Assembly (NCBI GenBank): GCA_024639325.1
Contig: JAHEIO010000025.1
Location: forward strand, 1 to 48,095
Reading direction: 5' to 3'
From: Gammaproteobacteria bacterium
GTDB taxonomy: Bacteria > Pseudomonadota > Gammaproteobacteria > Arenicellales > JAANXG01
DNA length: 48,095 nucleotides
Both the position numbers and the translations under genes were made by a program. The notes beneath the pieces are model-generated. The model was not told the origin of the DNA. It saw only the letters and a program-made list of their open reading frames with translations, and ran no database searches. This document shows positions 904-17,067 of the stretch, one piece after another. Each line of letters begins with the position of its first letter. Position 1 is the stretch's first letter.

Positions 904-1653
904 ATGATAAGCCAGTCCATACTTAGAAATTTGCAATGGCGTCTCCTGATCCTGATCCTGTTCTCGACCTCCACTGCGATCGCACAGCAGACCAGTCCGC
1001 AGGCAACGACGGATCTACCACCCCACATCCAGGAGGAACTGACGCCAAAGCCCGAACTTGGTCCCCGGTTGATGGATGTCCTTTCGGAAGAGGCCGAGGC
1101 GGTGCGCCGAAGGCAATTGCTCCAGAGCAGCAGACGGCCAATGCCGATTATCCCGCGGGAGCTGAAGCAGCACATGTTCAACATGATGGCCTCGGTAAGC
1201 GGCATGTCGATGCGTGAGCTGTTCAACTTCATGTCGCACAAAATGAAGGTGAACGAGGGAGTCGCGTTCGACGAAGTCATCGAATCGATGGAGATCAAGG
1301 CCAACGAGGTAAACTTCAAGAAAACCGGGCACAGCATGATCTGGCAGGATATCGGTGCGATCAGCGGTCTGCCCACCCTGCGCCTGGAGATCCTGCATTT
1401 TTGCGATGCGATCGTGGGCCGCCGCATGCTGGACTACAGTCCGGAGTTTTCCGTATTCATACCCTGCCGAATCTCGGTCATGGAAGACGCGACAGGCGAA
1501 ATCTGGATCATGACGCTGGACTGGGACGTGTCCTGGATGGCCATGGCCTGGCATCCTGAGTCGCAGCTGCCGGAAGACCTGAAGCAAGATGCAAGACGCA
1601 TTCGCGACGCAATGGACGATATCATGCGTGCGGGCGCCACCGGCGAGTGGTAG
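904..1653 (+). CDS. Secreted DUF302-domain protein
   Basis: The 249-residue product starts with a hydrophobic signal segment (RLLILILFSTSTAIA). It ends in a domain resembling DUF302 (about residues 105-215), seen in stretches such as GVAFDEVIESMEIKANEVNF, LEILHFCDA and FIPCRISVMEDATGEIWI. DUF302 proteins have no settled biochemical role; they recur near sulfur-oxidation and redox genes. Residues 30-100 are charged and probably helical. No strong Shine-Dalgarno precedes the ATG. The gene follows two Met-rich repeat proteins on the same strand and probably shares their operon, so all three may act together in the periplasm. Confidence 0.75.
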   Translation: MISQSILRNLQWRLLILILFSTSTAIAQQTSPQATTDLPPHIQEELTPKPELGPRLMDVLSEEAEAVRRRQLLQSSRRPMPIIPRELKQHMFNMMASVSGMSMRELFNFMSHKMKVNEGVAFDEVIESMEIKANEVNFKKTGHSMIWQDIGAISGLPTLRLEILHFCDAIVGRRMLDYSPEFSVFIPCRISVMEDATGEIWIMTLDWDVSWMAMAWHPESQLPEDLKQDARRIRDAMDDIMRAGATGEW

Positions 1654-1702
1654 GTGGCGAGTACCGCATTGTTCACGACGCCAATTTCTGGACTCGCTTG
1701 AA

Positions 1703-1775
1703 TCGGCGCGAGGAGCGCCTCCTACGAGTTAACCGAGATAGTAGCAATGTCGTAGGAGCGGCGCCCCGCCGCGAT
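1703..1775. repeat. REP-pair (REPIN-like) palindromic repeat
   Basis: Two inverted GC-rich palindromes (GGAGCGCCTCCTACGAG and CGTAGGAGCGGCGCCCCGC) are separated by about 25 bp. The second half recurs at 8007-8030 and, in reverse complement, inside the MITE-like element near 3164-3190. This is the usual look of gammaproteobacterial REP sequences. No RAYT (REP-associated transposase) gene is in the window. Confidence 0.7.
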
Positions 1776-1834
1776 CAAGTGGCGGGAGTTTTAATCACCG
1801 GGGTGAGTGAGACCAAGAAGGGGAACCAAACATC

Positions 1835-2230
1835 ATGTCTACCGTCACCCTGGTCGAATACGAGGATGCCAGCCCGGAAGTCATCGCTGTCTATGACGAC
1901 ATCCGCGCCGTTCGAAACACGGACTACATCAACAATTTCTGGAAGGCGCTGGCGCAGCACCCCGATACGCTGAAGCGCGTATGGTCATCGCTGAAGGCGG
2001 TAATGGCCGAGGGCGAAATCGACGCGCTTACCAAGGAAATGATCTACATCGCGGTGTCGGTGGCCAACAATTGCGACTATTGCATTCATTCACACACCGC
2101 GTCCGCTTTTTCCAAGGGAATGACGTCCGGGCAGTATGAGGAACTCATGGCCGTGATCGGCATGGCACACCAGACCAACGGGATCGGCTCGGGCCTCAAA
2201 GTGCCGGTCGATGAGTGCTATCTGAAGTAG
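1835..2230 (+). CDS. AhpD-like carboxymuconolactone decarboxylase family protein
   Basis: The 131-residue product carries the AhpD-type redox motif, CDYCIHSH (about residues 86-93), in which the two Cys and the following His form a peroxidase or disulfide-reductase site. The rest is helical, as expected for this all-alpha family (AVYDDIRAVR, LTKEMIYIAVSVANNCDYC). A likely role is alkylhydroperoxidase or general thiol-redox activity; family members vary and the substrate cannot be read. The start lies after AGGGGAACC. The gene stands alone between a REP element and a convergent GST gene. Confidence 0.85.
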   Translation: MSTVTLVEYEDASPEVIAVYDDIRAVRNTDYINNFWKALAQHPDTLKRVWSSLKAVMAEGEIDALTKEMIYIAVSVANNCDYCIHSHTASAFSKGMTSGQYEELMAVIGMAHQTNGIGSGLKVPVDECYLK

Positions 2231-2247
2231 GCCAAGTTATTTTCCGG

Positions 2248-2856
2248 TTATCCGGGATGGGGTAATCCGGGCATGGCCACGTAACCAGGCATCGATTCTA
2301 TTCGCTTGAACCATGCGCGGATCGACGGGAATGGATCGAGAGCAACGTTGCCTTCATGCACCAAGGCGGCATAGGGATAGCACGCCAGGTCGGCCAGGGT
2401 GAAGCGGTCGAGCGCAAGCCACGCATGGTCCTTCAACCTGAATTCCAGCATATCCAGGGCACTGTCGCTGAAGGTGTTCGCGGTTTTGAAGTCGAAATCC
2501 CGCTTGAAAATCACGATCGCCCGGACCATGGCAAGGCCGTTGAACACTTCGTTTACGGAAAACGACAACCATTGCTGTATCTCGGCCATCTCCCGTGCCG
2601 CCTCAGGGTACCACTCGGGCTTGCCGTAGGTGCGGGCGAGATAGATCAATATCGCGGCGCTGTCCCGCAGAGCGAGATCCCCGTCGACCAGAACGGGGAC
2701 TTTGTGCAACCGGTTCAACTCGATGAAATTCGGCTTCATCTGGTCTTTCTTGCGCAGGTCGACATCGACTTTCTCAAACTCCAGGCCGAGGAATGACAGC
2801 ATCATCCTGACCTTGTGGCAGTTTCCCGAAAGATCGAAGTCGTAGAGTTTCAACAT
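2248..2856 (-). CDS. Glutathione S-transferase family protein
   Basis: The 202-residue product has the two-domain GST layout. The N-terminal thioredoxin-like domain includes LSGNCHKVRMMLSFLGLEFE, the VPVL cis-proline motif and the glutathione-binding DSAAILIYLA. An all-alpha C-terminal domain follows (RFTLADLACYPYAAL). Such enzymes conjugate or reduce substrates with glutathione in the cytoplasm. The catalytic residue is probably Ser10 or Cys13. The start is set by AGGAGA upstream of the ATG. The gene converges on the AhpD-like gene with 17 bp between the stops. Confidence 0.9.
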   Translation of the reverse strand: MLKLYDFDLSGNCHKVRMMLSFLGLEFEKVDVDLRKKDQMKPNFIELNRLHKVPVLVDGDLALRDSAAILIYLARTYGKPEWYPEAAREMAEIQQWLSFSVNEVFNGLAMVRAIVIFKRDFDFKTANTFSDSALDMLEFRLKDHAWLALDRFTLADLACYPYAALVHEGNVALDPFPSIRAWFKRIESMPGYVAMPGLPHPG

Positions 2857-2963
2857 GGGTTCTCCTCTTTCTGCATGGGTCTAAAGGCGCCTTCCGCAAA
2901 GCCGCCGCACGACTTCATCGAGAATGATACGGGATTCGCCGGGCCAAACGTAGTCTGGTTGCG

Positions 2964-3238
2964 CTAGCCCGCATATTGCACCCGACCGGCCGTGATTGTT
3001 TTCTATGCCCTTGATCCATTTTCACCAATACACCGATTGGGATAGATTGATCCAAAGGACGGTTTGTCATCGGGGTCGGCCTATCCCGGTGCTGACTTGT
3101 CCAGCTTCGCCTGGGCTTGGTCTTCACTCGGACCGTAGCGACGGCTACGCTCCTCGCGCCGGTTCATCGCGGCGGGGGCGCCGCTCCTACAAAACCCGAC
3201 GCGGCGTCATCGCTCGCGATACGGGTGCAATATGCGGG
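2964..3238. mobile_element. MITE-like element, copy A
   Basis: About 275 bp of non-coding DNA bounded by inverted repeats: CTAGCCCGCATATTGCACC at the left and GGTGCAATATGCGGG at the right. The interior shares blocks with copy B at 35484-35733 (around TCTTCACTCGGACCGTAGC and TCATCGCTCG) and also holds a REP half-site. The right end abuts the stop codon of the tctA-like gene. The terminal CTAG is intact only on the left. With no transposase it would need one in trans. It fills most of the 385-bp gap between the GST and tctA-like genes. Confidence 0.8.
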
Positions 3239-3241
3239 CCG

Positions 3242-4735
3242 TCAGTGGTGATGTTTCTTGAAAAAAGCGGTGTAGGCGCTGCCTAGCGTGGTGAGGACAC
3301 CCGCAATGAGCAGCGTCAGGGCAATGGGACGATCGAAAAAGCCCAACCACTCGAAATGCAGCATCTGCATGGCCTGTGCAAAGGTCTGTTCACCGATCTT
3401 TCCCAGGATCAGGCCCAGCACGATGCCTGCGACGGAATATCCAGAGCGCCGCAGGAAAAATCCCATTGCGCCGGCCACGAACATGACGACCACGTCGATA
3501 ACCAGACCCCGGACAGCGTAAGCTCCGACGGTGGCCAGGAGCAGTATCATCGGCGCCAGGAACTGGAACGGAATGCGCAGCAGATTGATGATGGTCTTGG
3601 TTTCCAGGACACCGATGAACAGTATCGACAGGTTGGCGAAAAACATCGCGGCGAACACCACCCACACGAGATCCGGACTGTTGATGAACACCAGCGGGCC
3701 CGGCTCCATGTCATGCATCTGGAACACGCCGACCATCATTGCCGTCAGCGCGCCGCCGGGCAGGCCCAGCGCGAGCAGCGGGATCATGGCGGCGCCCGTG
3801 GCCGCATTGTTGGCTGTTTCCGACGAGATGACGCCCTCCAGCTTGCCCTTGCCGAACGCCTTACGGTCCTTCGACCAGCGCACCGCCTCGTTGTATCCCA
3901 TAAACGCGGCGAGTGTTGCCCCGATTCCGGGCAGAATACCGCAGAAAAACCCGATGACGATGGATCGAAGCACCGCGATCTTGTGTGCAATCAATTCGGA
4001 GAGGCTGGGGAAATCGACGTGCAGCTCGGGAGCCTCGTAGACGCCGGTCACCTTCTTTTCCGCCTGTACGAAGATCTCCGACACGGCGAAAAATCCCAGG
4101 ATGGTTGGAATGAAGTGAATGCCCGCGAGCAGATACGGCATGCCGAAATCGTAGCGTGCGATGCCCCCGACCGGGTCGAGCCCGACCACGGCAATCATCA
4201 AGCCAGCAAGTATCGACAACCAGCCCTTCCACAGGGTCTTCGCTCCAACCGAGGCCGCCACCGCCAGGCCAAAGAACACCAGGGCGAATATCTCGGGAGG
4301 CCCGAATGCCGAGATGGCCCAATCCGCGATGGGCGCCGTCGCCGCCATCATAATGACGGCCGATATGGTACCCCCCAGAGCCGAGCACATTACCGCGGCA
4401 CCGACGGCTTTTCCGGCCTGGCCATTTAGGGTCATCGGGTACCCGTCGAAAGCGGTGGGCGCATTCTCCGGCGCGCCTGGAATATTGAACAGGATAGCGG
4501 TGATCGCGCCGCCGTAGACACCGGTGCAGTAAATCACCGAAAAGAGCATGATGCCGTGCTCTGCGGACAGATGCGCGGTGAACGGCAAAAGAATTGCGGC
4601 CAGAGTCAGCATGCTCACGCCGGGTATGGCACCGAACAGCATGCCGCCGATCACCCCGCCCAGAAAGATCAAAATCCCGACGGGGTCGCTGAACAGGGCG
4701 ATCGTGCCGTTCAGAAAGTTGGTGAATGCGTCCAC
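3242..4735 (-). CDS. tctA: Tripartite tricarboxylate transporter, large permease (TctA)
   Basis: The 497-residue, very hydrophobic protein has about 10-12 membrane spans and the glycine-rich TctA signatures (FGAIPGVSMLTLAAILLPFT, CGILPGIGATLAAFMGY, LPGGALTAMM). Length is normal for the family. In TTT systems TctA is the large membrane channel and works with TctB and the periplasmic binder TctC, all encoded just upstream here. Substrates of the class include citrate, dicarboxylates, aromatic acids and sulfonates. The gene starts 7 bp after the tctB stop. Its 3' end lies against MITE copy A. Confidence 0.92.
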   Translation of the reverse strand: MDAFTNFLNGTIALFSDPVGILIFLGGVIGGMLFGAIPGVSMLTLAAILLPFTAHLSAEHGIMLFSVIYCTGVYGGAITAILFNIPGAPENAPTAFDGYPMTLNGQAGKAVGAAVMCSALGGTISAVIMMAATAPIADWAISAFGPPEIFALVFFGLAVAASVGAKTLWKGWLSILAGLMIAVVGLDPVGGIARYDFGMPYLLAGIHFIPTILGFFAVSEIFVQAEKKVTGVYEAPELHVDFPSLSELIAHKIAVLRSIVIGFFCGILPGIGATLAAFMGYNEAVRWSKDRKAFGKGKLEGVISSETANNAATGAAMIPLLALGLPGGALTAMMVGVFQMHDMEPGPLVFINSPDLVWVVFAAMFFANLSILFIGVLETKTIINLLRIPFQFLAPMILLLATVGAYAVRGLVIDVVVMFVAGAMGFFLRRSGYSVAGIVLGLILGKIGEQTFAQAMQMLHFEWLGFFDRPIALTLLIAGVLTTLGSAYTAFFKKHHH

Positions 4736-4742
4736 TCGCGCC

Positions 4743-5456
4743 CTACTGGATCAGCGTCACCAGCCAGTGGCTGAAATCATAGAAGGGGTGCACGTTCCCC
4801 GTGGGCAGGCCCACGTACAGCACGCTCACGAACAAAAAAAGTAGGATGCCCATAATCAGGGCCGCTACGATGGCCATCCACTTAGGCCTTCGCTCGCCCA
4901 TGAGGAACATCACGCCGACGATGAACAGCGGCGCGGTGGCGTAGAAACCCATGTCCTCGAGGAGGGCCGCGAAAAAGATCGGCAGGGCCAGTATGCCCCC
5001 GACATGGTTGCGCCACGTCAATGCGAGATAAACGAGAATCAGCACCGCGGCACATATTAGTTTTGCCGCATGCAGCCCGCCATCGTCCAGCGCAAATACT
5101 TCGGCCGCCCAGCCGGGCACACGCATGTAGGCAAACGGAATGACCAGTAGCGTGAGCGTGGACACATACCAGCGCAAGCTCGTGTGCCCGGTCCTCCGAG
5201 CCGCTTCCTCGGACCCGTCGTCGGAGGCCGCGCCCAGCGTACCCGAGGTCGCTTCGTCTCCGTCTTTCCAGTGATAGAGCAGTTGGCCCAGCGCCGCCAC
5301 CACCATCAACAGAATGATCGCCCGGGGCCATGCCGTGGCACCGAACTTGTAAATCTCGATGTTCCGCTCGAAGTCGAACGAATAAACATAGAGAACGGCA
5401 GCGAGCGCCAACCACAGGCCGACCTCGATGAAATGGCCGGGGCGCAGCTTACCCAT
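4743..5456 (-). CDS. tctB: Tripartite tricarboxylate transporter, small permease (TctB)
   Basis: The 237-residue protein has four or five predicted membrane helices (GLWLALAAVLYVYSF, AIILLMVVAALGQLLY, ALIMGILLFLFVSVLYVGLP). The loop of charged and small residues after the second helix is typical of the small DUF1468/TctB subunit but somewhat long here. It would pair with TctA in the inner membrane. It lies between tctC, from which it is separated by a strong hairpin, and tctA. Confidence 0.87.
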   Translation of the reverse strand: MGKLRPGHFIEVGLWLALAAVLYVYSFDFERNIEIYKFGATAWPRAIILLMVVAALGQLLYHWKDGDEATSGTLGAASDDGSEEAARRTGHTSLRWYVSTLTLLVIPFAYMRVPGWAAEVFALDDGGLHAAKLICAAVLILVYLALTWRNHVGGILALPIFFAALLEDMGFYATAPLFIVGVMFLMGERRPKWMAIVAALIMGILLFLFVSVLYVGLPTGNVHPFYDFSHWLVTLIQ

Positions 5457-5493
5457 GGGAGCCCGTCATACGATAGCTGCTCGCATGTGATCA

Positions 5494-5516
5494 GGCCCCG
5501 GTGGCTCGCCGGGGCC
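5494..5516 (-). terminator. Intercistronic hairpin between tctC and tctB
   Basis: Perfect 8-bp inverted repeat (GGCCCCGG, 7-base loop, CCGGGGCC) just after the tctC stop. No T tract follows on the minus strand, so it is probably not a full terminator. Hairpins here commonly protect the binding-protein message and lower permease expression; that role is inferred. Confidence 0.6.
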
Positions 5517-5534
5517 CGTCATGACGTGAGAGGA

Positions 5535-6563
5535 CTATTTGACCTCCAGCCCCATTTCCTTGTAAACATCCCGGTATTGCGAAATGGTGGAGGTAATGAG
5601 TTCCCTCGCCCCATCGGTATCCCGGAAGCTTTCGATCAGCGTCATGAACTTGCCTTCGTTGTAGTCCTGATAGCTTTTCTCGCAATACGCCTTCTGGAAG
5701 GCCCATTGCAGCCACTTGACCCGATCTTCCGGCGCGCCGGCGTGCGCGTAGAAACCGCGGAATCTGAACAGGGGTTCGAATTCCAGACCAACATCGGCGA
5801 GGCTCGGCACATCCGCAAATGCGGCGGGCGCCTCCTTCAGGATGGTGAGGATCGGCTTGAATTTTCCGGCGTCGAGAAATGAACGCACGTCGCCCGGCTG
5901 CTCGAACAGCGCATCGACCTGGCCACCGGCCAGCGCACCGTAGCGTGGGGCTCCCTTGTCGAAAGAAATCTGCTGGATCTTCATGCCGGTCGCATCCGTG
6001 ATGAACTTCATGGTGACGCGTTCCATCGAGCCTTCCTTGGAGACATTGGCGATGGTCGCCTTGCCGTCCTGTGCATTCACCCATTCGACAAATGAGTTCC
6101 AGTCGGTGAATCGATCTTCATCAGTGCGGATATAGATCTGTGAAAAGGTTATCTGCGAGATCACCAGCGGAATGAGATCCTTGGCGGGATTGGGCCGGGT
6201 CGAATCCAGCGCGTGGGCACTGGACGCATCGTCGATGTGCTCGAGTACGGTGTAGCCGTCCGCCGGGGTCGCCATGAAAGCGGTCATGCCCACGGTACCG
6301 GATCCACCGGGTTTGTGGTCCCGGTTTATCGAGACCCCGGTCAATTCGGTTACCGCCTGCGCCATGGCCTGGGCAACCTGACCGGAGCCCCCGGCGGGAC
6401 CATAGGGTACGATCATGGTCAGCGCGCGCTCCGGGAAGCCGCCCGGCATCTCCATGGAAGCGGGCAGCCCGTCGGTTGCGCAAGCCGCCATGGCGACACT
6501 TGCGGAAAACGCCATCGCGGCAACCGTGGTTCCGGTCGATGCAAGATATTTCTTATAATTCAT
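5535..6563 (-). CDS. tctC: TTT-system periplasmic solute-binding protein (TctC/Bug family)
   Basis: The 342-residue product has a signal peptide (MNYKKYLASTGTTVAAMAFS, cut after about SVAMA) and the Bug-family opening FPERALTMIVPYGPAGGSGQ. The domain end VSKEGSMERVTMKFI also fits. I chose the ATG at 6563 because AGGAGG lies 6-7 bases upstream and the signal peptide starts there; the open frame extends 55 codons further up without signal-peptide character. It should capture the substrate for TctAB. The substrate cannot be deduced from sequence, but the neighbouring aconitase X and CoA ligase genes suggest a carboxylated compound. Confidence 0.92.
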   Translation of the reverse strand: MNYKKYLASTGTTVAAMAFSASVAMAACATDGLPASMEMPGGFPERALTMIVPYGPAGGSGQVAQAMAQAVTELTGVSINRDHKPGGSGTVGMTAFMATPADGYTVLEHIDDASSAHALDSTRPNPAKDLIPLVISQITFSQIYIRTDEDRFTDWNSFVEWVNAQDGKATIANVSKEGSMERVTMKFITDATGMKIQQISFDKGAPRYGALAGGQVDALFEQPGDVRSFLDAGKFKPILTILKEAPAAFADVPSLADVGLEFEPLFRFRGFYAHAGAPEDRVKWLQWAFQKAYCEKSYQDYNEGKFMTLIESFRDTDGARELITSTISQYRDVYKEMGLEVK

Positions 6564-6696
6564 CTGGCCCTCCTGAGGTGAATTGTGACCGCTATCGTTT
6601 GGGTCATCAAAAAAATGGTATCCCAGCGCCCCGGGGGTGTCAAAGCAGGGGATATCGAAACCAAGGAATACAGCGGGCACGCGCCTCTTGCCAGTT

Positions 6697-7452
6697 TCAG
6701 GTAAATGCCCGCCACAGCATGGTTCCACCGGAGGCCATGAGGACGACCAGTATCAGGCGATTGAAGCGCTGGTCGCTAACACGGCCGCGCAGCCGTCGCC
6801 CGATGGCCAACCCGGCCGCGACCGGAACTGTGGCCGCCGCGGACATCAGCGCCAGAGGAACATCGAGGATCCCGAACCACAAGAGGATGATCGTCCACGG
6901 CACCACGCATGCCAGATAAAGAAAGCTGATCGAGGCGACGAAGCGCTCCTTGTCCAAATTCCTGATCGAGACCAGATAGATGATCAGCATCGGTCCAAAC
7001 ATTGACGACAAACCGCCGATCACGCCGCTGGCCAATCCGAAAACCACTCCGGCCGGCTTTTCCAGCGCCGCCGGCAGGTGCAGCTTGTAAGTCGAAGCCT
7101 GCAGCAGCGTAAACGCGATGACTACGAAGCCAACGAACAACAGCAACGATCGTTCATCAATGGCGGACAGGATCGCGACGCCGGCGTAGGTTCCGAACAA
7201 TATTGCAACAAAGGCCGGCCAGAATCGGCCCACGACCGTCCCGATCTGTTTTGCCTGTAAGGCCTGCCAGACGTTTGCGACAACCACCGGGATTGCCATC
7301 AGCGCGACGGCCGTTTGCACCGGTAGGACCAGCGCCATCAAGGGCACCGTGAGCAAAGGCGTGCCGACTCCCAGCGTTCCCTTGATCAGCCCGCCGCAAA
7401 ACAAGGCAAAACTGCACCAGGCAATGATCAGGGGATCGTACTCACTCAACAC
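6697..7452 (-). CDS. TauE/SafE-family membrane exporter
   Basis: The 251-residue protein has about eight membrane spans and family signatures (CGGLIKGTLGVGTPLLTVPLM, GLASGVIGGLSSMFGPMLIIYL). TauE/SafE proteins export sulfite, sulfoacetate or related anions, and several are found in sulfonate-degradation operons. It is 22 bp downstream of the aconitase X small-subunit gene and 134 bp upstream of tctC on the same strand. That position supports a role in removing a sulfur anion released by the pathway, but some family members are unrelated to sulfur. Confidence 0.88.
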   Translation of the reverse strand: MLSEYDPLIIAWCSFALFCGGLIKGTLGVGTPLLTVPLMALVLPVQTAVALMAIPVVVANVWQALQAKQIGTVVGRFWPAFVAILFGTYAGVAILSAIDERSLLLFVGFVVIAFTLLQASTYKLHLPAALEKPAGVVFGLASGVIGGLSSMFGPMLIIYLVSIRNLDKERFVASISFLYLACVVPWTIILLWFGILDVPLALMSAAATVPVAAGLAIGRRLRGRVSDQRFNRLILVVLMASGGTMLWRAFT

Positions 7453-7474
7453 GGTTTCACCGGTCGCACGCCGT

Positions 7475-7888
7475 TCAACGCATGACCGTGACCCGGCCCG
7501 CCTCCGGATCGACAGCCACGCGGTCCCCGGTCCTTACAAACGAGGTGATATCGCCATCGAATCGATCCATGAAGCAGAGGCCCGCAAACGCGGCACCCTG
7601 GGCCATGATTGGATTGGAAATGTTCAGCAGCAGCGCCGCCGGCGCCATCCCGCGGGACTTCATCTCTCGCAGCATCCAGGAGGTGGCAACGCCGCCCTTG
7701 GCGGTATTGAGGACGAGAATTCGCCCGACATAGTTTTCGCCGAACAGCGCGTGCGCCGGACGTGAAAACACGCCATTGACGCGATCGAGATCATACCGGG
7801 CGCTGAAGTTATCTTCGGCTACCAGTGCAATACCGGTGACGGATTCACCGATGCCCCGGTGACCCTTGATGGTGGTTTGTTCGGTCAT
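7475..7888 (-). CDS. Aconitase X small (swivel, DUF126) subunit
   Basis: The 137-residue protein matches the AcnX swivel domain: GRILVLNTAKGG, LREMKSRGMAPAALLLNISN, IMAQGAAFAGL and a C-terminal GDRVAVDPEAGRVTV. AcnX enzymes are iron-sulfur dehydratases; known activities include cis-3-hydroxyproline and phosphomevalonate dehydration. At the position where several AcnX members have a KGSS-type serine motif this protein has KGGVATS. This may mark a different substrate subgroup, though I recall that motif from memory only. The partner large subunit is encoded 159 bp upstream, across a REP pair. Confidence 0.85.
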   Translation of the reverse strand: MTEQTTIKGHRGIGESVTGIALVAEDNFSARYDLDRVNGVFSRPAHALFGENYVGRILVLNTAKGGVATSWMLREMKSRGMAPAALLLNISNPIMAQGAAFAGLCFMDRFDGDITSFVRTGDRVAVDPEAGRVTVMR

Positions 7889-7956
7889 GGGTGTGTCTCT
7901 CGGTCAACGTCGTCATTACAACTTCACGTCTATATTAATGGACATGCCGCTCGCAG

Positions 7957-8031
7957 GCGGCGCGAGGCGCGCCTCCTGCAAAGCGGCCGAGTGATCGCGC
8001 CAACGATGCGGGAGCGGCGCCCCGCGGCGAT
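7957..8031. repeat. REP-pair (REPIN-like) palindromic repeat
   Basis: Two inverted GC-rich halves (GCGAGGCGCGCCTCCTGCA and GCGGGAGCGGCGCCCCGCGG) match the pair at 1703-1775 in order and spacing. It lies in the 159-bp gap between the two aconitase X genes and might act as an mRNA hairpin between them. Confidence 0.7.
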
Positions 8032-8047
8032 GGAGTGCGCTTCATGA

Positions 8048-9295
8048 TTAGATTTTTCCGGCGACGGCGGCATCGACGCACTGCTCGGTGGTTGCCAGAA
8101 CGGGCACGTAGTCATATCCCTGAATGATGTTGACCAGCTTGGCCGAATTGCTAACCAGGGTCTTCCAGCGGTTGGCCCGCGCCGTTTCCTTTGCGTACAT
8201 CTGGTAGAAACAAACGCCTTCCAGCACAATCACCCCGGCTTCATCGAGTGCCACGGTAATGCCCATGCGGTCGCAACCCGCCTTGACCTCGGGTGCGGTG
8301 GCAATGACGAAGTCGGTGTCCCGGTGCACCCGTCTTCCTCTGATCAACGTTGCAATCATGTGCATTTCCAGGAGCGACAGCTGAGGGGCCGCCAGGACCA
8401 CCACATCCACCTTCCCCTTGTGGCGGCCCTGCTCGGAGTAGAAGTTTTTTATGTCCGCCGCGGTGATCCTCCCGCCGGGCAGTGACAGCAGACCGCCGGA
8501 AAGAACCCTACCGATGTCGGTTGCCTCGGGCGTCACACCGTCGATATGGAACAGCGGCACCGAACCATAGCTCGCCAGGGCGGCACCAAAATGTTTGAGC
8601 TGATCCGATGTCGGCGTTGACGTGATCCCGGTGAGCGCGGGTACGTTCCAGTAAGAACCGGTGCGCCGGCCGATGACCGCACCTAAGGCGCCCCAATCGG
8701 CCAGATCGCCGGGGGCGTAATCGACAGTGAACAAGTGCGTTGCCCGGCGATTTTTGCCCAGATGATAGCCATAACGAGGGGCCCTGCCGGTGAACGCCGC
8801 CGCCAGGGCCGCGGGGCCGCCCTCGAAATTGGATCGTGCACCGCAAACGCTGTTGGCGTAGATCACGGAGCCGGTATCCCCGAACGCGAGGTGCGCACCG
8901 AACACCGGGGCCTGAAAGATCTGGTAGTTGATACAGGTATTGGTCATCAGTATACCGAAGCTCTCGAACGCTGAAATCGCGCGCTGCTCGAGAAGCGCCC
9001 ACTCCTCATTCTGCTTGAGCGCGCGGTAGCGGCAAAGATCGATTCCGCGCGGATCGGTGATGGTTGGCACGCACACCGACCGCTCGAGGCGCGGGTAGCC
9101 GGCGAGCTCCTCCAGGTACCGCACCCCGGCCTCGCCGAGGGACTCGGTATCTGCCATCAGGTGGACCTGGCTGATTTCAACGAAATCAGCGGCATCAAAA
9201 AACCGCCCCACCTCGATCTGCTGTTGCAGAGCCTGTTGGCGCGGGTACCCGAAATCACCCGCGATCATGGATTCTTCGTATTTCGTCAGTTTCAT
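8048..9295 (-). CDS. Aconitase X large (catalytic, DUF521) subunit
   Basis: The 415-residue protein aligns with the AcnX catalytic domain from MKLTKYEESMIAGDFG onward: VEISQVHLMADTESLGEAG, TNTCINYQIFQAPVFG, GSVIYANSVCGARSNFEGG, and the C-terminal VKAGCDRMGITVAL. Cysteines in the NTC, SVCGA and AGC segments are the likely cluster ligands. I chose the ATG at 9295, which gives the normal family N-terminus; an upstream ATG at 9334 would add 13 residues. It forms a two-subunit dehydratase with the product of the next gene. The gene is divergent from the aldehyde dehydrogenase gene, so both probably share a control region at 9296-9399. Confidence 0.87.
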   Translation of the reverse strand: MKLTKYEESMIAGDFGYPRQQALQQQIEVGRFFDAADFVEISQVHLMADTESLGEAGVRYLEELAGYPRLERSVCVPTITDPRGIDLCRYRALKQNEEWALLEQRAISAFESFGILMTNTCINYQIFQAPVFGAHLAFGDTGSVIYANSVCGARSNFEGGPAALAAAFTGRAPRYGYHLGKNRRATHLFTVDYAPGDLADWGALGAVIGRRTGSYWNVPALTGITSTPTSDQLKHFGAALASYGSVPLFHIDGVTPEATDIGRVLSGGLLSLPGGRITAADIKNFYSEQGRHKGKVDVVVLAAPQLSLLEMHMIATLIRGRRVHRDTDFVIATAPEVKAGCDRMGITVALDEAGVIVLEGVCFYQMYAKETARANRWKTLVSNSAKLVNIIQGYDYVPVLATTEQCVDAAVAGKI

Positions 9296-9399
9296 CCGGA
9301 TCCAGTTTACCAAAACTGAAAACAACGATTTCACACGACTTGACGCGGTCAGAACAGGGGCTTAGTCTGCCGCGTCCTTACAGACTGCATCAAATCAAT
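9296..9399. promoter_or_regulatory. Divergent intergenic region of the catabolic locus
   Basis: About 100 bp separate the divergent start codons of the AcnX large subunit and the SauS-like gene. Both transcription units must start here or within the first codons. No regulator gene flanks it and I see no clear operator, so the controlling factor is probably encoded elsewhere. Confidence 0.45.
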
Positions 9400-10839
9400 A
9401 TGTCAAATCCGACACACAGTGCCGCCGGTGCCGGGACCCTCGACGACGAATCAACCCTGGTCGATCAGCTGGTATCACGCGGGCGCCGAGCCATGAAGGA
9501 GTTCCCCCGGGCTGAGCAGGGGCGAGTGGACGAGGTCGTGACGGCAATTGCGTGGTCGCTGTATCAACCCGAACGTGCCCGCCGACTGGCGGAGATTGCG
9601 GTTGCCGACACCGGGATCGGGAATGTACACGACAAGATTACCAAGAATCAGCGCAAGACCTTCGGCACTTTGCGCGATCTGATGCGTGTCCGCACGGTGG
9701 GAATCATCGAGAGCGACAGCGAGCGTGGTATCGTCAAGTACGGCAAGCCGGTAGGTGTGGTAGCGGCGATTACGCCCTCGACAAATCCTTCCGCCACACC
9801 CGTAAACAAGACCATGATGGCACTCAAGGGAGGCAACGCAATCATCATTGCGCCTTCTCCAAGCGGCTGGAACAGCACGAATGCTACGGTGGATATGATG
9901 AGGGAAGCTCTGCAAAGAGTGGAAGCGCCCGTGGACCTCGTTCAGATCCTGCCGCAGCCCGTTTCCCGTTCATTGACCCGTCTTCTAATGCAGAAGTGCG
10001 ATCTGGTCGTGGCTACCGGTTCGCAAAACAATGTCCGTGGAGCCTACAGCAGCGGCACTCCCGCTATCGGCGTCGGCGCCGGAAATGTTCCCGTGGTCAT
10101 CGACAGCAGCGCGGACCTGGACGATGCCGCTCAAAAAATTTGCGCCTCCAAGATCTTCGACAATTCCACTTCGTGTTCATCGGAAAACGCCCTGGTCATA
10201 CTCGACGATATCTACGAAGACGCCGTCGACGCGTTGAAGCGTGCCGGGGGATATTTGACCCATACCGACGAACGGGATCGAATAGCACGGCAACTCTGGA
10301 CCGACGGCAAGCTCAACCGCAATCTCATCGCGACCGACGCCGATGTGTTCGCCGGTAAAGTCGGGCTTGGCGACGGCTCGGGGTCCGCCAGGTTCTTCAT
10401 GGTGGAGGAAGAATCATTCGATCCGGAATCGTCCTTTGCCGACGAGAAACTATCCCTGGTGTTAACCGTGTATCGTGCGCGCGATTTCAGACACGCCGTT
10501 GAGCTGGTTGCCCGGATACTCGCTGTTCAGGGCCTCGGTCACTCCTGCGGAATTCACACCGCAAACATGGCGCATGCCCGAAAATTGGCGGAGGATATCG
10601 ACGTGGTGCGGGTGCTGGTCAATCAGGCGCACACTTTCGGCAACGGCGGCAGCTTCGACAACGCGTTAAATTTCACGCTGAGCATGGGCTGCGGCACATG
10701 GGGCGGCAACAGTATTTCAGAAAATCTCAACTATCGTCACTTCATCAACATCACCCATCTCGTCACGACTTTCGCTGAAGACAAGCCGACGGAAGAAGAT
10801 TTGTTCGGGGCGTATATCGCGAAGTACGGGCGCGATTGA
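9400..10839 (+). CDS. SauS-like acylating (CoA-dependent) aldehyde dehydrogenase
   Basis: The 479-residue protein belongs to the acylating aldehyde dehydrogenases. It closely resembles sulfoacetaldehyde dehydrogenase SauS as I remember it: KITKNQRKTFGTLRDL, PVGVVAAITPSTNPSATP, GVGAGNVPVVI, the catalytic-Cys motif STSCSSENALV (Cys259) and the long match NQAHTFGNGGSFDNALNF. SauS interconverts sulfoacetyl-CoA and sulfoacetaldehyde with NADP(H). I start at the ATG at 9400; a further in-frame ATG at 9340 adds 20 unconserved residues. The stop overlaps the start of the CoA ligase gene (TGATG), so the two are translationally coupled, as expected for consecutive steps. The aldehyde substrate could be a different small acid. 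Confidence 0.85.
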   Translation: MSNPTHSAAGAGTLDDESTLVDQLVSRGRRAMKEFPRAEQGRVDEVVTAIAWSLYQPERARRLAEIAVADTGIGNVHDKITKNQRKTFGTLRDLMRVRTVGIIESDSERGIVKYGKPVGVVAAITPSTNPSATPVNKTMMALKGGNAIIIAPSPSGWNSTNATVDMMREALQRVEAPVDLVQILPQPVSRSLTRLLMQKCDLVVATGSQNNVRGAYSSGTPAIGVGAGNVPVVIDSSADLDDAAQKICASKIFDNSTSCSSENALVILDDIYEDAVDALKRAGGYLTHTDERDRIARQLWTDGKLNRNLIATDADVFAGKVGLGDGSGSARFFMVEEESFDPESSFADEKLSLVLTVYRARDFRHAVELVARILAVQGLGHSCGIHTANMAHARKLAEDIDVVRVLVNQAHTFGNGGSFDNALNFTLSMGCGTWGGNSISENLNYRHFINITHLVTTFAEDKPTEEDLFGAYIAKYGRD

Positions 10840-12398
10840 TGGACACCGTCCGGCGGTACATCGACGCATTTGGTGCTGCTCGCGCGGATGACGTCTGGCT
10901 GATCGCACCGGAAACATCCGCCAGCTTCACCTACGCCGACCTCCGTCGAACAGCCCATCAGATCAAGCACCGGCTCGATGAAATGGGCGTCGCCAACGCA
11001 GCCAAGGTAGGCTTTCTTGCGGACAACGGGGGCTGGACCGCGCTGCTGTATCTTGGAGTAATGGCCGCCGGTCGCGTAATCGTACCCCTGAACGCCGTCG
11101 CCGGCGACGTGCAGCTGGCGCACGTGCTGAATCACTCCGATACCGGGATCGTCTTCGTTTCCCCGCACTACCGGGGCAAGCTCACCAAGCTGCTCGAGCA
11201 GATACCACGTGAAATCAACGTCATCGAACTCGACGCCTTGGACGGTCCGGTTTGGCACTCGGAATCACAAGACGGATCATCGCGGGATGCAGACAGGGGC
11301 CCGCAGCCGGAAGCTGACGATCCCGCGCTATTGCTCTACACATCCGGATCAACCGGACTGCCCAAAGGTGCGGTACTGAGCCACCGGGCCATCGTCAGCG
11401 GCGGACGTAACGTAGTCGAAGGACACCAGCTCAGCAGTGCTGATCGCGCACTGTGCGTGCTGCCGATCTATCACATCAACGGCGCGATGGTCACGGTCGC
11501 GGCACCGCTGATCAGCGGCGGCAGCGTGGTGATGCCGACCCGCTTCAGCGCCAGCACATTCTGGCCGCTGATCGCGGAGTACCGCTGCACCTGGGCTAGC
11601 ATCGTCCCGACCATCATCAAGTACCTTCTGGATCGCGCTGAGCAGGAGCCGTTCGATTTTGGCCGCGATGAGAGATTGCGCTGTTTTCGATTCGGGCGTT
11701 CCGCATCGGCACCGTTACCGGTTGCCGTGCTGGCTCAGTGGGAGAAGGTGTTCGGCGTGCCCATGATCGAGACCCTGGGCCTGACGGAAACCGCGGGAAC
11801 CGTGGCGACCAATCCTATGCCGCCCGGCAAGTGCAAACCCGGCTCCGTCGGTCTGGCGTTCGGCAATCAGATCAAGATCATCGATGAAAATGGGTGCGAA
11901 TGTCCGACCGGCGCTGCCGGGGAAATTGCCATTCGCGGCAACAACCTGCTCGATCACTACTACAAGAACCCTGAGGCCACAGCGGCGGCCTTCGTACAAG
12001 GTTGGTTCAGGACCGGTGATCTGGGCATGCTGGACGATGACGGCTACCTGTTCATCACGGGCCGCCTCAAGGAGCTGATCATCCGCGGCGGGGAAAACAT
12101 CGCACCCCGGGAGATCGACGATGTACTTTACAGGCACGATGCCGTCCTGGAAGCGGCTGCGGTCGGCGTGAATGATGAGAACTACGGTCAGGAAGTGGTG
12201 GCGTGCGTGGTCCGGCGGGAGGGATTCCGGTGCAGTGAACAGGAGCTCAAGACCCTGTGCGAAAATGCGGTCGGAAAATACAAGGCTCCGAAACGCATCT
12301 ATTTCATGAACGACCTCCCCAAGGGCCCGTCCGGAAAGATCCTGAGGTTGAAACTGCCGGAGCTGATCTCGTCGGGCGAATCACGCGAGGCGAAATGA
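10839..12398 (+). CDS. SauT-like AMP-forming acyl-CoA ligase
   Basis: The 519-residue protein has the ANL-superfamily motifs in order. The phosphate loop LLYTSGSTGLPKGAV lies near residue 165. LGLTETAG is in the middle, then FRTGDLGMLDDDGYLFITGR and the hinge KELIIRGGENIAPREID. The catalytic lysine is in GPSGKILR near residue 501. Such enzymes activate a carboxylic acid with ATP and CoA. Coupling to the SauS-like dehydrogenase parallels sauT-sauS of sulfoacetate degradation, where SauT makes sulfoacetyl-CoA. The ATG at 10839 overlaps the upstream stop; a TTG one codon earlier is less likely. The acid it activates is unproven. Confidence 0.85.
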   Translation: MDTVRRYIDAFGAARADDVWLIAPETSASFTYADLRRTAHQIKHRLDEMGVANAAKVGFLADNGGWTALLYLGVMAAGRVIVPLNAVAGDVQLAHVLNHSDTGIVFVSPHYRGKLTKLLEQIPREINVIELDALDGPVWHSESQDGSSRDADRGPQPEADDPALLLYTSGSTGLPKGAVLSHRAIVSGGRNVVEGHQLSSADRALCVLPIYHINGAMVTVAAPLISGGSVVMPTRFSASTFWPLIAEYRCTWASIVPTIIKYLLDRAEQEPFDFGRDERLRCFRFGRSASAPLPVAVLAQWEKVFGVPMIETLGLTETAGTVATNPMPPGKCKPGSVGLAFGNQIKIIDENGCECPTGAAGEIAIRGNNLLDHYYKNPEATAAAFVQGWFRTGDLGMLDDDGYLFITGRLKELIIRGGENIAPREIDDVLYRHDAVLEAAAVGVNDENYGQEVVACVVRREGFRCSEQELKTLCENAVGKYKAPKRIYFMNDLPKGPSGKILRLKLPELISSGESREAK

Positions 12399-12535
12399 AC
12401 GGTATTCAAGGTATGAATACTTACGAATCGGTATGCACTGATACCACCCCCTTAAATTTGGGTTCAGAATCGGACTTTTTCTAGATTTACGCAAAGGTTA
12501 TGCTGCAAACACTACACACAACAAGGAACTAAAAA

Positions 12536-13234
12536 ATGCGTATCGTCTATATTCTTCTTTGCTGCTTCGTGGTCGCCGGGTCCGCGGCCGCCGCCGAGAC
12601 GCAACCCGCCTATGATCGGGTTACATTGTCCGTTACCGAGGAGGAGCGGGTCGGCAACGACACGCTTGTTGCCGCTCTCTACAGCGAGCGGGAAGGCGAG
12701 CGGGCACCGGATATTGCATCTGAGGTCAACGAGAATATTTCCTGGGCCATCGACGAAGCCCGGAAAGTGGATGGAGTAACCGCGCAGACTACTGGATATA
12801 ACTCACAACCCGTTTATCGAGACCGGACGGTGATCGGCTGGCGGGTGAGGCAATCTATCCGGCTCGAAAGCCAGGATGCGGCCGGTTTGAGCGAACTCAT
12901 AGGCAAGCTGCAGAAACGTCTGGCCATGAGTTCCATCAGCTACGAAATTTCTCCGCAACGTCGGGCACAGGCGGAGCATGGACTGATCGCGCTGGCGCTG
13001 GCCTCGTTCGACAAACGCGCTCGACTGATTACCGACGAACTGGGGCGCCCCGGCTACCGGATCGTGAATCTCAATGTGGCGACCTCCGGCACGTTAGTGC
13101 GTCCCATACCGGTTCAGCGCATGGCCATGGCCATGGAAGCCGACGGGGCGGGTATCGCGCCTCCGGCGCTGGAAAGCGGCGTACAGAGTGTACGGGTCGA
13201 GGTCAATGGGACGATCGAACTGAAGCTGAATTGA
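12536..13234 (+). CDS. Secreted SIMPL-domain (DUF541) protein
   Basis: The 232-residue protein has a signal peptide (MRIVYILLCCFVVAGSAAAA) followed by a SIMPL/DUF541 domain. Seen are VTLSVTEEERV, a central TTGYNSQPVYRDRTVIGWRVRQSI and a C-terminal VRVEVNGTIELKLN. Proteins of this family lie in the periplasm or outer membrane and have no general biochemical role; some bind kinases or aid oxidative-stress tolerance. The gene stands alone, convergent with the yhcB-like gene. Confidence 0.83.
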   Translation: MRIVYILLCCFVVAGSAAAAETQPAYDRVTLSVTEEERVGNDTLVAALYSEREGERAPDIASEVNENISWAIDEARKVDGVTAQTTGYNSQPVYRDRTVIGWRVRQSIRLESQDAAGLSELIGKLQKRLAMSSISYEISPQRRAQAEHGLIALALASFDKRARLITDELGRPGYRIVNLNVATSGTLVRPIPVQRMAMAMEADGAGIAPPALESGVQSVRVEVNGTIELKLN

Positions 13235-13381
13235 GATCGAAAATCACGTGATGGTCCCGGCAGGGCGCCGCGCACCAAAATGATGGTTCGGTGTGTCGCA
13301 ACGAAGCTGTTGGGGGGCGCGCCATGCGCCGATTTCGACCAATTCTGGTCAGCCCTGGGGGCAATATACGGCTTAATGTTT

Positions 13382-13942
13382 CTATTTCTGAGCAGGCTCG
13401 GCCCGGTCACCTATTTTATCTGCGATGTCCGCGGCTTCCCTGATGGTTTCGGAAATATATTCCCTGGAAGTTTCTTCGATAGGCTCCGCCCCTTCTTTAG
13501 AGGCGCCGCGTGCGTCTGCTGACGACCCGATGTTTTCCGTCGACCCCACAGGGACGGCCGCATCCCGGGTCGCGTCATGTTCCGCGGTTTCCGGGGCCTT
13601 AGTTACATCGGGCAGGGTGATTAACACCCTGCCCTTTTGCTGTTCCAATAGTCTCATGTCGCCCGCGGAATCGCCCAGCCTATGGGCGCCCTCGGAAAGA
13701 TGTTTGTAGACCTTGACGTAGTCCTGGGTCAGGTCGTTGACTAGTTCTGACGTCGTATTGAAGTGGTCGGCCACGCTGGATTTGTAGGCCTCGAACTTCT
13801 GCTCTGCTTTCTCGAGTTCAGCCTTAAGCTTCCTGGCGTCTTTGCCGCCCCGGGATATGACGCCGAACAATACCGCGCCCAACGCGCAACCGGCGGCGAA
13901 TGCCGCAATGACGGCGGGCCAAAATGAGTTGGAGAATTCCAC
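13382..13942 (-). CDS. YhcB-family (DUF1043) inner-membrane protein
   Basis: The GTG at 13942, preceded by GGGAGA, gives a 186-residue protein that begins with a single membrane helix (WPAVIAAFAAGCALGAVLF). A coiled coil follows (LKAELEKAEQKFEAYKSSVADHF), then the DUF1043-type stretch SELVNDLTQDYVKVYKHLSEGA. The tail is long, acidic and probably disordered (residues about 110-186). YhcB/LapD-like proteins link cell-envelope growth, division and lipopolysaccharide control. The open frame extends 56 codons further upstream, but that part is not conserved-looking. Confidence 0.85.
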   Translation of the reverse strand: MEFSNSFWPAVIAAFAAGCALGAVLFGVISRGGKDARKLKAELEKAEQKFEAYKSSVADHFNTTSELVNDLTQDYVKVYKHLSEGAHRLGDSAGDMRLLEQQKGRVLITLPDVTKAPETAEHDATRDAAVPVGSTENIGSSADARGASKEGAEPIEETSREYISETIREAADIADKIGDRAEPAQK

Positions 13943-14131
13943 AAGATCTCCCGGGCTTTTGTATGAATAAAAACGGCGCGTCGAATTATACGTCACCCGG
14001 GGTTGTATTGACACGCCAAACGAGGCCCGTGGCGACCAAATGCTCGGCCATTGGACTCGCGAACGGGTTGCCGGGGTTTCGGAAAACCGATTGTCCGTTA
14101 TCATTACCATCAGACAACAGGGCAGATTTTC

Positions 14132-14287
14132 ATGTTACCGAGATCAATCGCCCACGGCGGCGTGTGGGATATGGACAACGTGCAGGGATGGATGGACGAC
14201 CATGGTGGAGTCCAGCGCGCGGTCAATGCGGGCGCACTGCCTGACTCGGAAAACCTCTGCTATTTTGCCAACCTCGGTAGTCGCTGA
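14132..14287 (+). CDS. Small protein of unknown function, possibly coupled to the YcaQ-like gene
   Basis: The 51-residue frame MLPRSIAHGGVWDMDNVQGW through FANLGSR ends exactly one base before the TTG start of the next gene. I do not recognise a family. The reading frame is tight against the downstream gene, which suggests translational coupling. It could instead be a chance frame with the downstream gene starting later. Confidence 0.4.
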   Translation: MLPRSIAHGGVWDMDNVQGWMDDHGGVQRAVNAGALPDSENLCYFANLGSR

Positions 14288-15490
14288 TTGAAAAATCCCG
14301 CGGATATTTCCATCGGCGAAGCCCGAAAACTGGCGCTGCTCAGCCAGCAGCTGCCGTCGTCGACATTCCGGCGTGGGCAGCGGGGCACACGGGATGCTAT
14401 TGCACGCCTCGGATACGTACAGATCGACACCATTTCCGTGGTAGAGCGTTCACACCACCTCACCTTGTGGAATCGCGTACCGCACTATCGCCGGCACTAT
14501 CTCGACAGGCTGGTTCTTGACCGTTCGATACTGGAGTATTGGGCGCACGCCGCGGCCTACCTGCCGATGTCGGATTACCGGTTTACGCTGCCCCGCATGC
14601 GCGCCATCTCGAATGGTCAGCGCCACTGGTACGAAAAAAACCCAAAGCTTATGAAAGAGATCCTCGCACAGGTGCGTTCGAACGGGCCGACCCGGGCGAA
14701 GGATATCGAGTCGCACCGCAGCGCAGACGACGGGATGTGGGAATGGGGACCGGTGAAACAGTCGCTCGAGATGTTGTTCATGGAGGGCAGACTCCTGGTG
14801 ACCCGGCGACACGGTTTTCAGAAAGTATTCGATTTGGCGGAGCGTGTGGTGCCGCCGGGAATAGACACCTCGGAACCCACGAAAAGTGAATATGCCCACT
14901 GGCTCATCGAACGCCATCTGGAGGCACACGGACTCGGGCGGCTGGTGGAGTTCAGCTACCTGAGGCGCGGAATGGGCGCCGCGGTAAAGACCGCGCTTCT
15001 GCAAAAAGTCGAGCAAGGAGATGTGATACCGCTGCGAATGAAGCGGTCCGGGGCGATCTACTATGCGGACAGAAAGTTCGAGCACGTGCTCTCGCAACGC
15101 CTTTCACGAAACCGCGTGAAGTTCCTTTCGCCCTTCGACAACCTGGTTATCCAGCGTAAACGCGTGGAACAGTTGTTCGATTTCGACTTTCAGCTGGAAT
15201 GCTACGTTCCGGCGGAAAAAAGACGATGGGGTTACTTCTGCCTGCCCGTACTGTGGCGCGGCAGGCTCGTCGCCAGGATGGACGCCAAAGCGGATCGCAG
15301 GCACGGGGTGTTCAGGATACATTCCTTCACGATGGAAGCGGGGATCAACGATCTCGATGAATTTGCACGGCAGGTTGCCCGAGAACTCGAGAGACTGACG
15401 GAGTTCCACGGCTGCGAGCGGATCACGATTGGATCGGTATCGCCCGGCTCGTTGAAAAGCCTGCTTCGCAAAGCGACAGCCTGGCAATAA
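14288..15490 (+). CDS. YcaQ/AlkX-family DNA glycosylase-like winged-helix protein
   Basis: The 400-residue protein fits the YcaQ (HTH_42) family of interstrand-crosslink glycosylases: ARLGYVQIDTISVVERSHH near the N-terminus, then WEWGPVKQSLEMLFMEGRL, LSPFDNLVIQRKRVEQLFDF and WRGRLVARMDAKADRR. The QID tripeptide (about residues 45-47) corresponds to the Q-x-D catalytic motif described for E. coli YcaQ. It would unhook alkylated bases from DNA. The start is uncertain: the TTG at 14288 follows directly on an upstream stop and has no strong ribosome-binding site. Confidence 0.82.
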   Translation: MKNPADISIGEARKLALLSQQLPSSTFRRGQRGTRDAIARLGYVQIDTISVVERSHHLTLWNRVPHYRRHYLDRLVLDRSILEYWAHAAAYLPMSDYRFTLPRMRAISNGQRHWYEKNPKLMKEILAQVRSNGPTRAKDIESHRSADDGMWEWGPVKQSLEMLFMEGRLLVTRRHGFQKVFDLAERVVPPGIDTSEPTKSEYAHWLIERHLEAHGLGRLVEFSYLRRGMGAAVKTALLQKVEQGDVIPLRMKRSGAIYYADRKFEHVLSQRLSRNRVKFLSPFDNLVIQRKRVEQLFDFDFQLECYVPAEKRRWGYFCLPVLWRGRLVARMDAKADRRHGVFRIHSFTMEAGINDLDEFARQVARELERLTEFHGCERITIGSVSPGSLKSLLRKATAWQ

Positions 15491-15502
15491 TTTGACTCGA
15501 CC

Positions 15503-16432
15503 ATGATTTTACGAACCGCCAGGACCTATGCCCGCAGGATGATGCTGTCGACCGGGATCGGCTTTTCTCAGCATGCGTGCAAGGCGTGGATCCTGTCCGG
15601 CGCTGACCCGGAGCGGGTCGTCGAAGGACTGAAAAAAAGTCGGAATCGACGAACTTTCGAACGACGCATGCGGCTGGCCGGCCTCATCCTAGCCCACGTT
15701 GGCGATGAGGAAGGTGCGCGTCGTATTTTCACAGAACTGCTCGAGCACAATCCTGCTCAGCCGCTATGGTTGAAGTATTCGGCAGGCGTACCAGCGCACG
15801 ACGTGATCGTGCTCGATCGGTACGGCATAGCTTACTGCCCCATGCCAAAGAACGCGTCCTCGAGTATCAAGGCCCGTATGAACTATCTGATGCGCGGCAC
15901 GAACGACGTCTATGCGCACCGCTTTTTTACGAATGTGTATGAAACCTCCCAGACCACCGATCTTCCCGACCTGGCCGATTACTTCAGTTTTACCGTGATA
16001 AGGGACCCTGTCGAGAGGCTGCTCTCCTACTATCAGAAAAATATCATCGAGGAAGATTCCCTCGCCCGTGAACTCGAAAACAGCCGGGCTCGCGAGGTAA
16101 TGTCAACACACCCATCGATCGACGAATTCGTAGGGCAACTCGAGTCGTATATTTTCTATTTCGATGACGCTCATCACCATACCTTGCCGCAGTCGGCATA
16201 CATCGGCACCGCGCTGCCGCATCTATCGCGCGTTTACCGGATTTCCGAAACCGATTCGATATTCTCGGAGCTGAGCAGCCGCACCCGGACCGACCTCACG
16301 CCGACCTATCTATTGAAATCCAATGTCAATGTAGAAAAACTTTTACCCGAACTCAGCAAGACGGCGCGTGACAAACTTAGGGCGTTCTACCGCGCGGACT
16401 ATGAGCTGCTGGGCCGGTGGTTGGATCCGTAG
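15503..16432 (+). CDS. Sulfotransferase family 2 protein
   Basis: The 309-residue protein carries the PAPS-binding signatures of carbohydrate-type sulfotransferases. The 5'-phosphosulfate loop CPMPKNASSSI lies near residues 112-122, and the 3'-phosphate motif VIRDPVERLLSYY near 164-176. Residues 45-95 resemble a TPR-like helix pair (LILAHVGDEEGARRIFTELL). It would transfer sulfate from PAPS to a cell-surface glycan or secreted molecule. There is no signal peptide and no glycan biosynthesis cluster beside it, so the acceptor is unknown. The start follows 12 bp after the YcaQ-like stop. Confidence 0.86.
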   Translation: MILRTARTYARRMMLSTGIGFSQHACKAWILSGADPERVVEGLKKSRNRRTFERRMRLAGLILAHVGDEEGARRIFTELLEHNPAQPLWLKYSAGVPAHDVIVLDRYGIAYCPMPKNASSSIKARMNYLMRGTNDVYAHRFFTNVYETSQTTDLPDLADYFSFTVIRDPVERLLSYYQKNIIEEDSLARELENSRAREVMSTHPSIDEFVGQLESYIFYFDDAHHHTLPQSAYIGTALPHLSRVYRISETDSIFSELSSRTRTDLTPTYLLKSNVNVEKLLPELSKTARDKLRAFYRADYELLGRWLDP

Positions 16433-16569
16433 ATCGCCTGCAGCCGGCAGCTCGAATACCTCGGGCACATCTTTCCGCAGTTGTTTTGCGATGTGAAATC
16501 CATCGACCAGCACGGACATGAAGTTTGGTCTATAATTAAGATGAAAGCTGAATGATGCGGGGGTGTCAT

Positions 16570-17064: not shown

Positions 17065-17067
17065 GCT

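Follow-up and report, generated by a model that had tools for sequence, protein, structure and literature searches.

A probable sulfoacetate uptake and activation locus carrying an inserted aconitase X in an Arenicellales gammaproteobacterium

We analysed a 48,095-nucleotide stretch of DNA from an Arenicellales gammaproteobacterium (hereafter the window) and focused on a divergent eight-gene locus at 3242-12398. Our preferred explanation, to which we assign a probability of about 0.68, is that the locus serves to take up and activate sulfoacetate and that the two-subunit aconitase X (AcnX) within it is an accessory insertion. In the proposed route, TctABC would import sulfoacetate, SauT would convert it to sulfoacetyl-CoA, and SauS would reduce this product to sulfoacetaldehyde. 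The sulfoacetaldehyde would then be split into acetyl phosphate and sulfite by Xsc, whose gene lies on a different contig of this genome, and TauE would export the sulfite. In the lineage of this genome, AcnX appears to have entered the locus between sauS and tauE, and it probably shares a transcript with TauE-TctCBA. Its most likely substrate would be a different small acid, perhaps a further sulfonate or a phosphonate analogue, outside the sulfoacetate route.

Layout and recurrence of the locus

The first-pass annotation had described a two-subunit AcnX, a TauE/SafE exporter and a TctABC system facing SauS-like and SauT-like genes. All eight open reading frames are found at these places, intact and free of internal stops, and Pfam agrees with the gene set. 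The left arm, on the reverse strand, begins with the AcnX large (catalytic) subunit (8048-9295; PF04412, 354.7 bits) and small (swivel) subunit (7475-7888; PF01989, 72 bits), which are followed by a TauE/SafE-type exporter, probably for sulfite (6697-7452; PF01925, 105.7 bits, cut-off 32.6). The three TTT transporter genes complete this arm: the periplasmic solute-binding protein TctC (5535-6563; PF03401, 60.5 bits), the small permease TctB (4743-5456; PF07331, 46.7 bits) and the large permease TctA (3242-4735; PF01970, 429 bits), SauXYZ-like by context. The right arm, on the forward strand, consists of SauS, an acylating sulfoacetaldehyde dehydrogenase of the Aldedh type (9400-10839), and then an AMP-forming CoA ligase assigned by context as SauT, a sulfoacetate-CoA ligase (10839-12398; PF00501, AMP-binding, 251.7 bits), whose start overlaps the sauS stop codon by one base. 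Within the gap of approximately 100 bases between the arms (9296-9399), comparison by eye revealed a candidate sigma-70-like promoter, TTGACG-N17-TAGTCT, directed toward sauS; it is also seen in L034 and L035, and toward sauT in L029.

The same gene order is found in L033, an independently assembled close relative whose genes are 94-99% identical to those of the window, as well as in L034 (Arenicellales) and L035, gammaproteobacteria at a greater distance with about 70-93% identity. Its recurrence in these three loci rules out an artefact of assembly, and conservation in relatives, on which the first-pass annotation had made its proposal depend, is borne out.

Elsewhere in the window, two small open reading frames at 2-829 are rich in repeated Met-Asn-Pro units (e.g. 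MNPGTYGAMMNPGSYMQFMNPSTY), the second carrying a CAQCH motif, and an open reading frame at 15503-16432 with a PKNASSS motif resembles a carbohydrate sulfotransferase. In L035, too, there is a Sulfotransfer_1 gene, placed after TctA (16127-17047), and genes of the Asp/Glu racemase and arylmalonate decarboxylase families lie on either side of the module in L034 (4663-5328 and 16657-17454).

Evidence for a sulfoacetate module

To call the dehydrogenase SauS-like, as had been done, was an understatement: it scores 762.4 bits against NF047625, for which the curated cut-off is 600. Its nearest relatives among plasmid records (63-65% identity) belong to TTT-SauS-SauCD loci, and the two such loci that we read have a pta-like gene, IclR and xsc close by. 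The identity of the ligase as SauT is less certain than that of SauS. The designation SauT-like is reasonable by context, but no SauT family model matched the window CoA ligase in the family-model search, and among solved structures those of oxalate-CoA ligases come nearest. The ligase is 51.6% identical to that of an xsc-sauT-sauS-TTT cluster and 42.5% identical to that of an IclR-sauST-MFS cluster; with the ligases of clearer sau loci it shares 42-52% identity, no less than they share with one member of their own set. The window lacks xsc, as the first-pass annotation had noted, and a genome search located one true xsc on contig C128 (TIGR03457, 1055.9 bits, cut-off 676.4). In another genome, G055, a single cluster contains xsc, sauT, sauS, TTT and IclR.

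Because SauS exceeds its cut-off, the ligase, TctABC and TauE lie beside sauS as in other sulfoacetate loci, and a true xsc is present in the genome, the SauST/TTT/TauE part is well supported, at the level of sequence, as a module of an already known kind for taking up and activating sulfoacetate. The earlier claim of a sulfoacetate-type sulfonate locus, with a TTT system for uptake and TauE as exporter, is supported. We infer the substrates of the TTT transporter and of the ligase, as well as the direction of TauE.

A sauRSTU sulfoacetate pathway was reportedly described in Cupriavidus necator H16 by Weinitschke et al. in 2010. The window genome resembles that system in that SauS exceeds the family cut-off, the putative sauT directly follows sauS and xsc is present; however, it has a TTT transporter where C. 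necator has the MFS carrier SauU, and its locus contains TauE and the AcnX insertion but no regulator gene. Clusters of sauST with TTT genes also occur on Sulfitobacter, Ruegeria and Tateyamaria plasmids (L104-L106). A published study reports them from sponge symbionts and names the TTT transporter SauXYZ (PMC12625764). In gene content, these hybrid clusters are like the window locus in SauS, the putative SauT and the TTT genes proposed as SauXYZ, whereas AcnX is unmentioned in that study. The SauS-SauCD-SauXYZ system of Bilophila wadsworthia (PMC12625764, PMC12890257) shares SauS and TTT, but it uses an ADP-forming SauCD in place of the AMP-forming SauT, and reduction to isethionate with IseG in place of the Xsc route of the window genome. 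The divergent TctABC-TauE and SauST arrangement, present in many genomes of one gammaproteobacterial order, extends the known sulfoacetate loci.

No IclR-type regulator (SauR) is encoded in the window locus. On C128, xsc adjoins an IclR-like gene whose product is 38% identical to the IclR of the IclR-sauST-MFS locus. Between xsc and this gene lies a perfect palindrome (ATGAGATNNNTNATCTCAT; ATGAGATAAATAATCTCAT) at G000:C128:29596-29614 (L002, L133), and a similar site is found at xsc in relatives (L125, L121); it is possibly an IclR operator. We considered a regulator common to xsc and the window locus and set this idea aside, as the genome has a single copy of the palindrome and the window has none. 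Co-regulation of the two loci is therefore unproven.

Aconitase X with and without the module

We searched 108 genomes of the order of genome G370 for AcnX, SauS and xsc, and read sau loci among them. AcnX of this subclass was found in 22 genomes, SauS in 73 and xsc in 81; AcnX was called absent at a threshold of E 1e-80, and since the genomes are drafts or metagenome assemblies, a few absences may be assembly gaps. Genes at neighbouring loci were called as naive ORF picks, and the neighbours cited here are those backed by Pfam, NCBIfam or homology. The divergent TctABC(-TauE) and SauST arrangement occurs without AcnX in G425, G429, G431, G433, G434, G435 and G439, and partly (SauS and TTT) in G438, and TauE is part of the module in relatives. 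Three genomes (G437, G440, G441) carry AcnX on other contigs. In G438 and G439, an IclR-like match lies between sauS and the TTT genes, where the window lineage has AcnX; elsewhere, the site between sauS and tauE is empty or holds an IclR gene.

The transport proteins are similar in both settings. In AcnX-less genomes, TctA and TctC are 85-90% and 79-85% identical to the window proteins, respectively; TctA is 85-93% identical across relatives with and without AcnX, and TctC 79-88% in seven relatives. Since TctC similarity falls in the same 79-88% range with or without AcnX, its ligand seems independent of AcnX. Furthermore, because the module is kept in genomes without AcnX, AcnX is an optional insertion rather than a required step, and we rejected the latter role on the sau loci of this one order. 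The first-pass annotation had proposed a new pathway of hydroxylated substrate uptake, dehydration by AcnX and subsequent CoA activation. This proposal is not upheld, given that the module and a similar TctC persist without AcnX, that AcnX occurs in many genomes without adjoining sauST, and that sauST with TTT had already been described (PMC12625764). What remains of it is a recurrent but optional physical link between AcnX and the module, and the AcnX insertion represents a new accessory gene in a known pathway module.

Neighbourhood analysis of the AcnX subgroup, which had been suggested, revealed this link as recurrent proximity to sauS or sauT in several lineages, alongside many genomes without it. 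On the AcnX large-subunit tree, the sauST-linked rows need two changes. One group comprises the window lineage, L033, L034, L035 and G214, in the last of which AcnX is divergent to sauT and no sauS lies beside sauT; the other comprises G361/G265, where 3-5 kb separate AcnX from sauST. In G430, G401 and G402, the distance between AcnX and sauS is 13-15 kb. The gene beside sauT and AcnX in G214 (L029, 1-1395) encodes a TPP enzyme that scores 562.9 bits for the 5-guanidino-2-oxopentanoate decarboxylase subfamily, above the cut-off of 500. The linkage probabilities assume random gene placement and independent lineages, and are overstated by the clustering of catabolic genes; the AcnX-sau placement is rare under random placement, but catabolic genes cluster and the lineages are related, and it is thus suggestive.

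At the genome level, xsc is present in each of the five genomes with AcnX in the class sample, against 18 of 339 overall, and every AcnX genome found there also has SauS. Within the order of G370, SauS is present in 20 of the 22 AcnX genomes versus 53 of the 86 others (p 0.006, uncorrected for relatedness), and AcnX enrichment is not significant for xsc (p 0.13) or module type (p 0.07). Being strong across the class but weak inside the order, co-occurrence was not accepted as proof of an AcnX-sau link. A TauD-like dioxygenase lies beside sauT in L034, L035 and the AcnX-less G439, and beside AcnX in L031 and L161. It was discarded as an essential AcnX partner, as a search at E 1e-30 found no TauD-like gene in this genome.

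Other AcnX neighbours are diverse. In L038 and L200, AcnX belongs to TRAP operons near a transporter gene of the SulP or TauE family, a PrpB-like lyase gene lies directly upstream of AcnX in L048 and L055, and AcnX in L026 is accompanied by fumarase and fumarate-reductase-like genes. In a sister lineage (L036, L157; same-sized pairs in L158 and L160), an OCD/mu-crystallin-family reductase gene is followed by an oligoribonuclease gene and then AcnX. In the L040 locus (1309-8729), the genes for the AcnX large and small subunits come after one for an enolase-superfamily dehydratase and before those for a ComA-like protein of the phosphosulfolactate synthase family, a TauD-like dioxygenase and, in addition, a CoA transferase of the CaiB type. 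In L054 (Rhodobacteraceae; 11338-17577), and also in L047, L056 and L066, AcnX adjoins an aminotransferase gene, a type I phosphodiesterase-family gene, possibly for a phosphonoacetate hydrolase, and a phosphonoacetaldehyde dehydrogenase gene (TIGR03250, 760.2 bits in L054, cut-off 635.65), a combination that probably represents an aminoethylphosphonate route. We looked for a single theme among the neighbours (TRAP, TTT binding proteins, PrpB-, fumarase/fumarate-reductase-, PdxA- and ComA-like genes, phosphonate genes) and found them too mixed for naming a substrate. Nevertheless, these gene contexts suggest small anionic acids, some of them sulfonated or phosphonated, and the proximity to sulfonate genes, together with the phosphonoacetaldehyde dehydrogenase locus of one Rhodobacteraceae lineage, provides a short list of candidate substrates.

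Active site and competing readings of aconitase X

The Pfam matches to the large and swivel domains confirm the AcnX fold, and the AlphaFold model of the large subunit (pLDDT 91.4) aligns with Thermococcus kodakarensis AcnX (7cnr_A) at Z 51.1 over 383 residues. We aligned the large subunit with about 50 relatives of at least 49% identity, and the small subunit with archaeal small subunits and the Agrobacterium tumefaciens enzyme. Like the type II AcnX of T. kodakarensis (mevalonate-5-phosphate dehydratase type, 7cnr/7cns), the window enzyme has two subunits and retains two cluster cysteines, but the identity is 30%. Compared with the A. tumefaciens enzyme, it shares the fold (Z 39) and the equivalents of Cys273, Cys508 and Lys530, but it has two subunits where that enzyme is a single chain. 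The catalytic serine (A. tumefaciens Ser70, T. kodakarensis Ser62) is replaced by glycine, and the KGGVA motif (KGGVATSW in the window small subunit) is kept across the aligned small subunits. Almost every member of the clade has Met, Ile and Asp-Thr-Gly at the equivalents of Asp203, Tyr534 and Glu292-Ser293-Asn294; the third archaeal cluster cysteine (Cys283) of the large subunit is Ala, and the archaeal phosphate-site residues Gly48, Val49, Ser50, Asn53 and Asn79 are Ala, Asp, Thr, Ser and Asp. With Ser62, Cys283 and the phosphate site all changed, we rejected an archaeal type IIb mevalonate-5-phosphate dehydratase.

Work on residue roles found Ser70 essential in the A. tumefaciens enzyme and a Glu-Ser pair in contact with the substrate, and reported that the landmark residues of the two known activities are missing from subclasses IIc to IIf, which are still to be characterised (PMC8184944). 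We infer from the alignment that the window enzyme belongs to one of these subclasses. It apparently represents an uncharacterised two-subunit subclass with a changed catalytic site and with substrate-site residues unlike those of both characterised AcnX types; among its roughly 50 aligned members, we found no characterised one. The gene pair is under purifying selection, as dN is low relative to dS against L033 (large subunit, 0.010 and 0.050; small subunit, 0.003 and 0.029; dN/dS about 0.1-0.2).

Among the possible roles of this enzyme, the one that we prefer is that of an accessory lyase with a second substrate. The conserved position of AcnX inside the operon would be unexpected for an enzyme unrelated to the module substrate and counts against this reading. 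AcnX might instead be integral to a new sulfonate route, in which TctABC imports a hydroxylated or larger sulfonate and AcnX, with the TauD-like dioxygenase in some relatives, yields sulfoacetate or an unsaturated sulfonate to be finished by SauT/SauS and Xsc. The closeness of AcnX to sauST in several lineages, the dioxygenase beside sauT (L034/L035), beside AcnX (L031, L161) or with AcnX and a ComA-like gene (L040), the xsc and SauS genes of all AcnX genomes in the class sample, and TauE near the TRAP-AcnX operon of L200 all agree with such a route. However, the retention of the module with a similar TctC in genomes without AcnX, and the weak within-order enrichment for SauS, xsc and module type, make it unlikely. 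Rather doubtful, too, is a role for the subclass as a new iron-sulfur lyase for sulfonate- or phosphonate-type acids, which would work without the usual serine base and, in this locus, channel a further sulfonate into pyruvate or the sulfoacetate module, with TauE exporting sulfite; water or sulfite elimination from a hydroxysulfonate would be a possible reaction.

We weighed two further explanations. The ligase and dehydrogenase might use a different short acid, for instance oxalate or malonate, in a locus unrelated to sulfonates, as the oxalate-CoA ligase structures could suggest, along with the AcnX-linked ligase of G214, which adjoins the TPP decarboxylase-type enzyme and not sauS. We regard this as improbable, because SauS lies far above its curated cut-off, TauE is within the module, xsc accompanies AcnX throughout the class sample, and relatives have xsc in the same cluster. 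Hydroxyproline dehydration is the activity of characterised bacterial AcnX enzymes (PMC8184944), and the ornithine-cyclodeaminase/mu-crystallin-family reductase two genes upstream of AcnX in the sister lineage (L036, L157) would fit it. Yet the window enzyme scores 196.6 bits against NF051439 (cut-off 700), with Gly, Met and Ile at the Ser70, Asp203 and Tyr534 equivalents and the Glu292-Ser293-Asn294 triad replaced. The L157 reductase is also below the pyrroline-carboxylate reductase cut-offs and is separated from AcnX by the oligoribonuclease gene. We therefore rejected this activity, which we consider very improbable.

Members of the AcnX subclass were also observed on rhizobial plasmids, namely L025 and NZ_FO082821.1 of Pseudorhizobium banfieldiae. 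In L025, from an arsenite-oxidising strain, AcnX is followed by an SSADH-type dehydrogenase gene and lies among insertion sequences.
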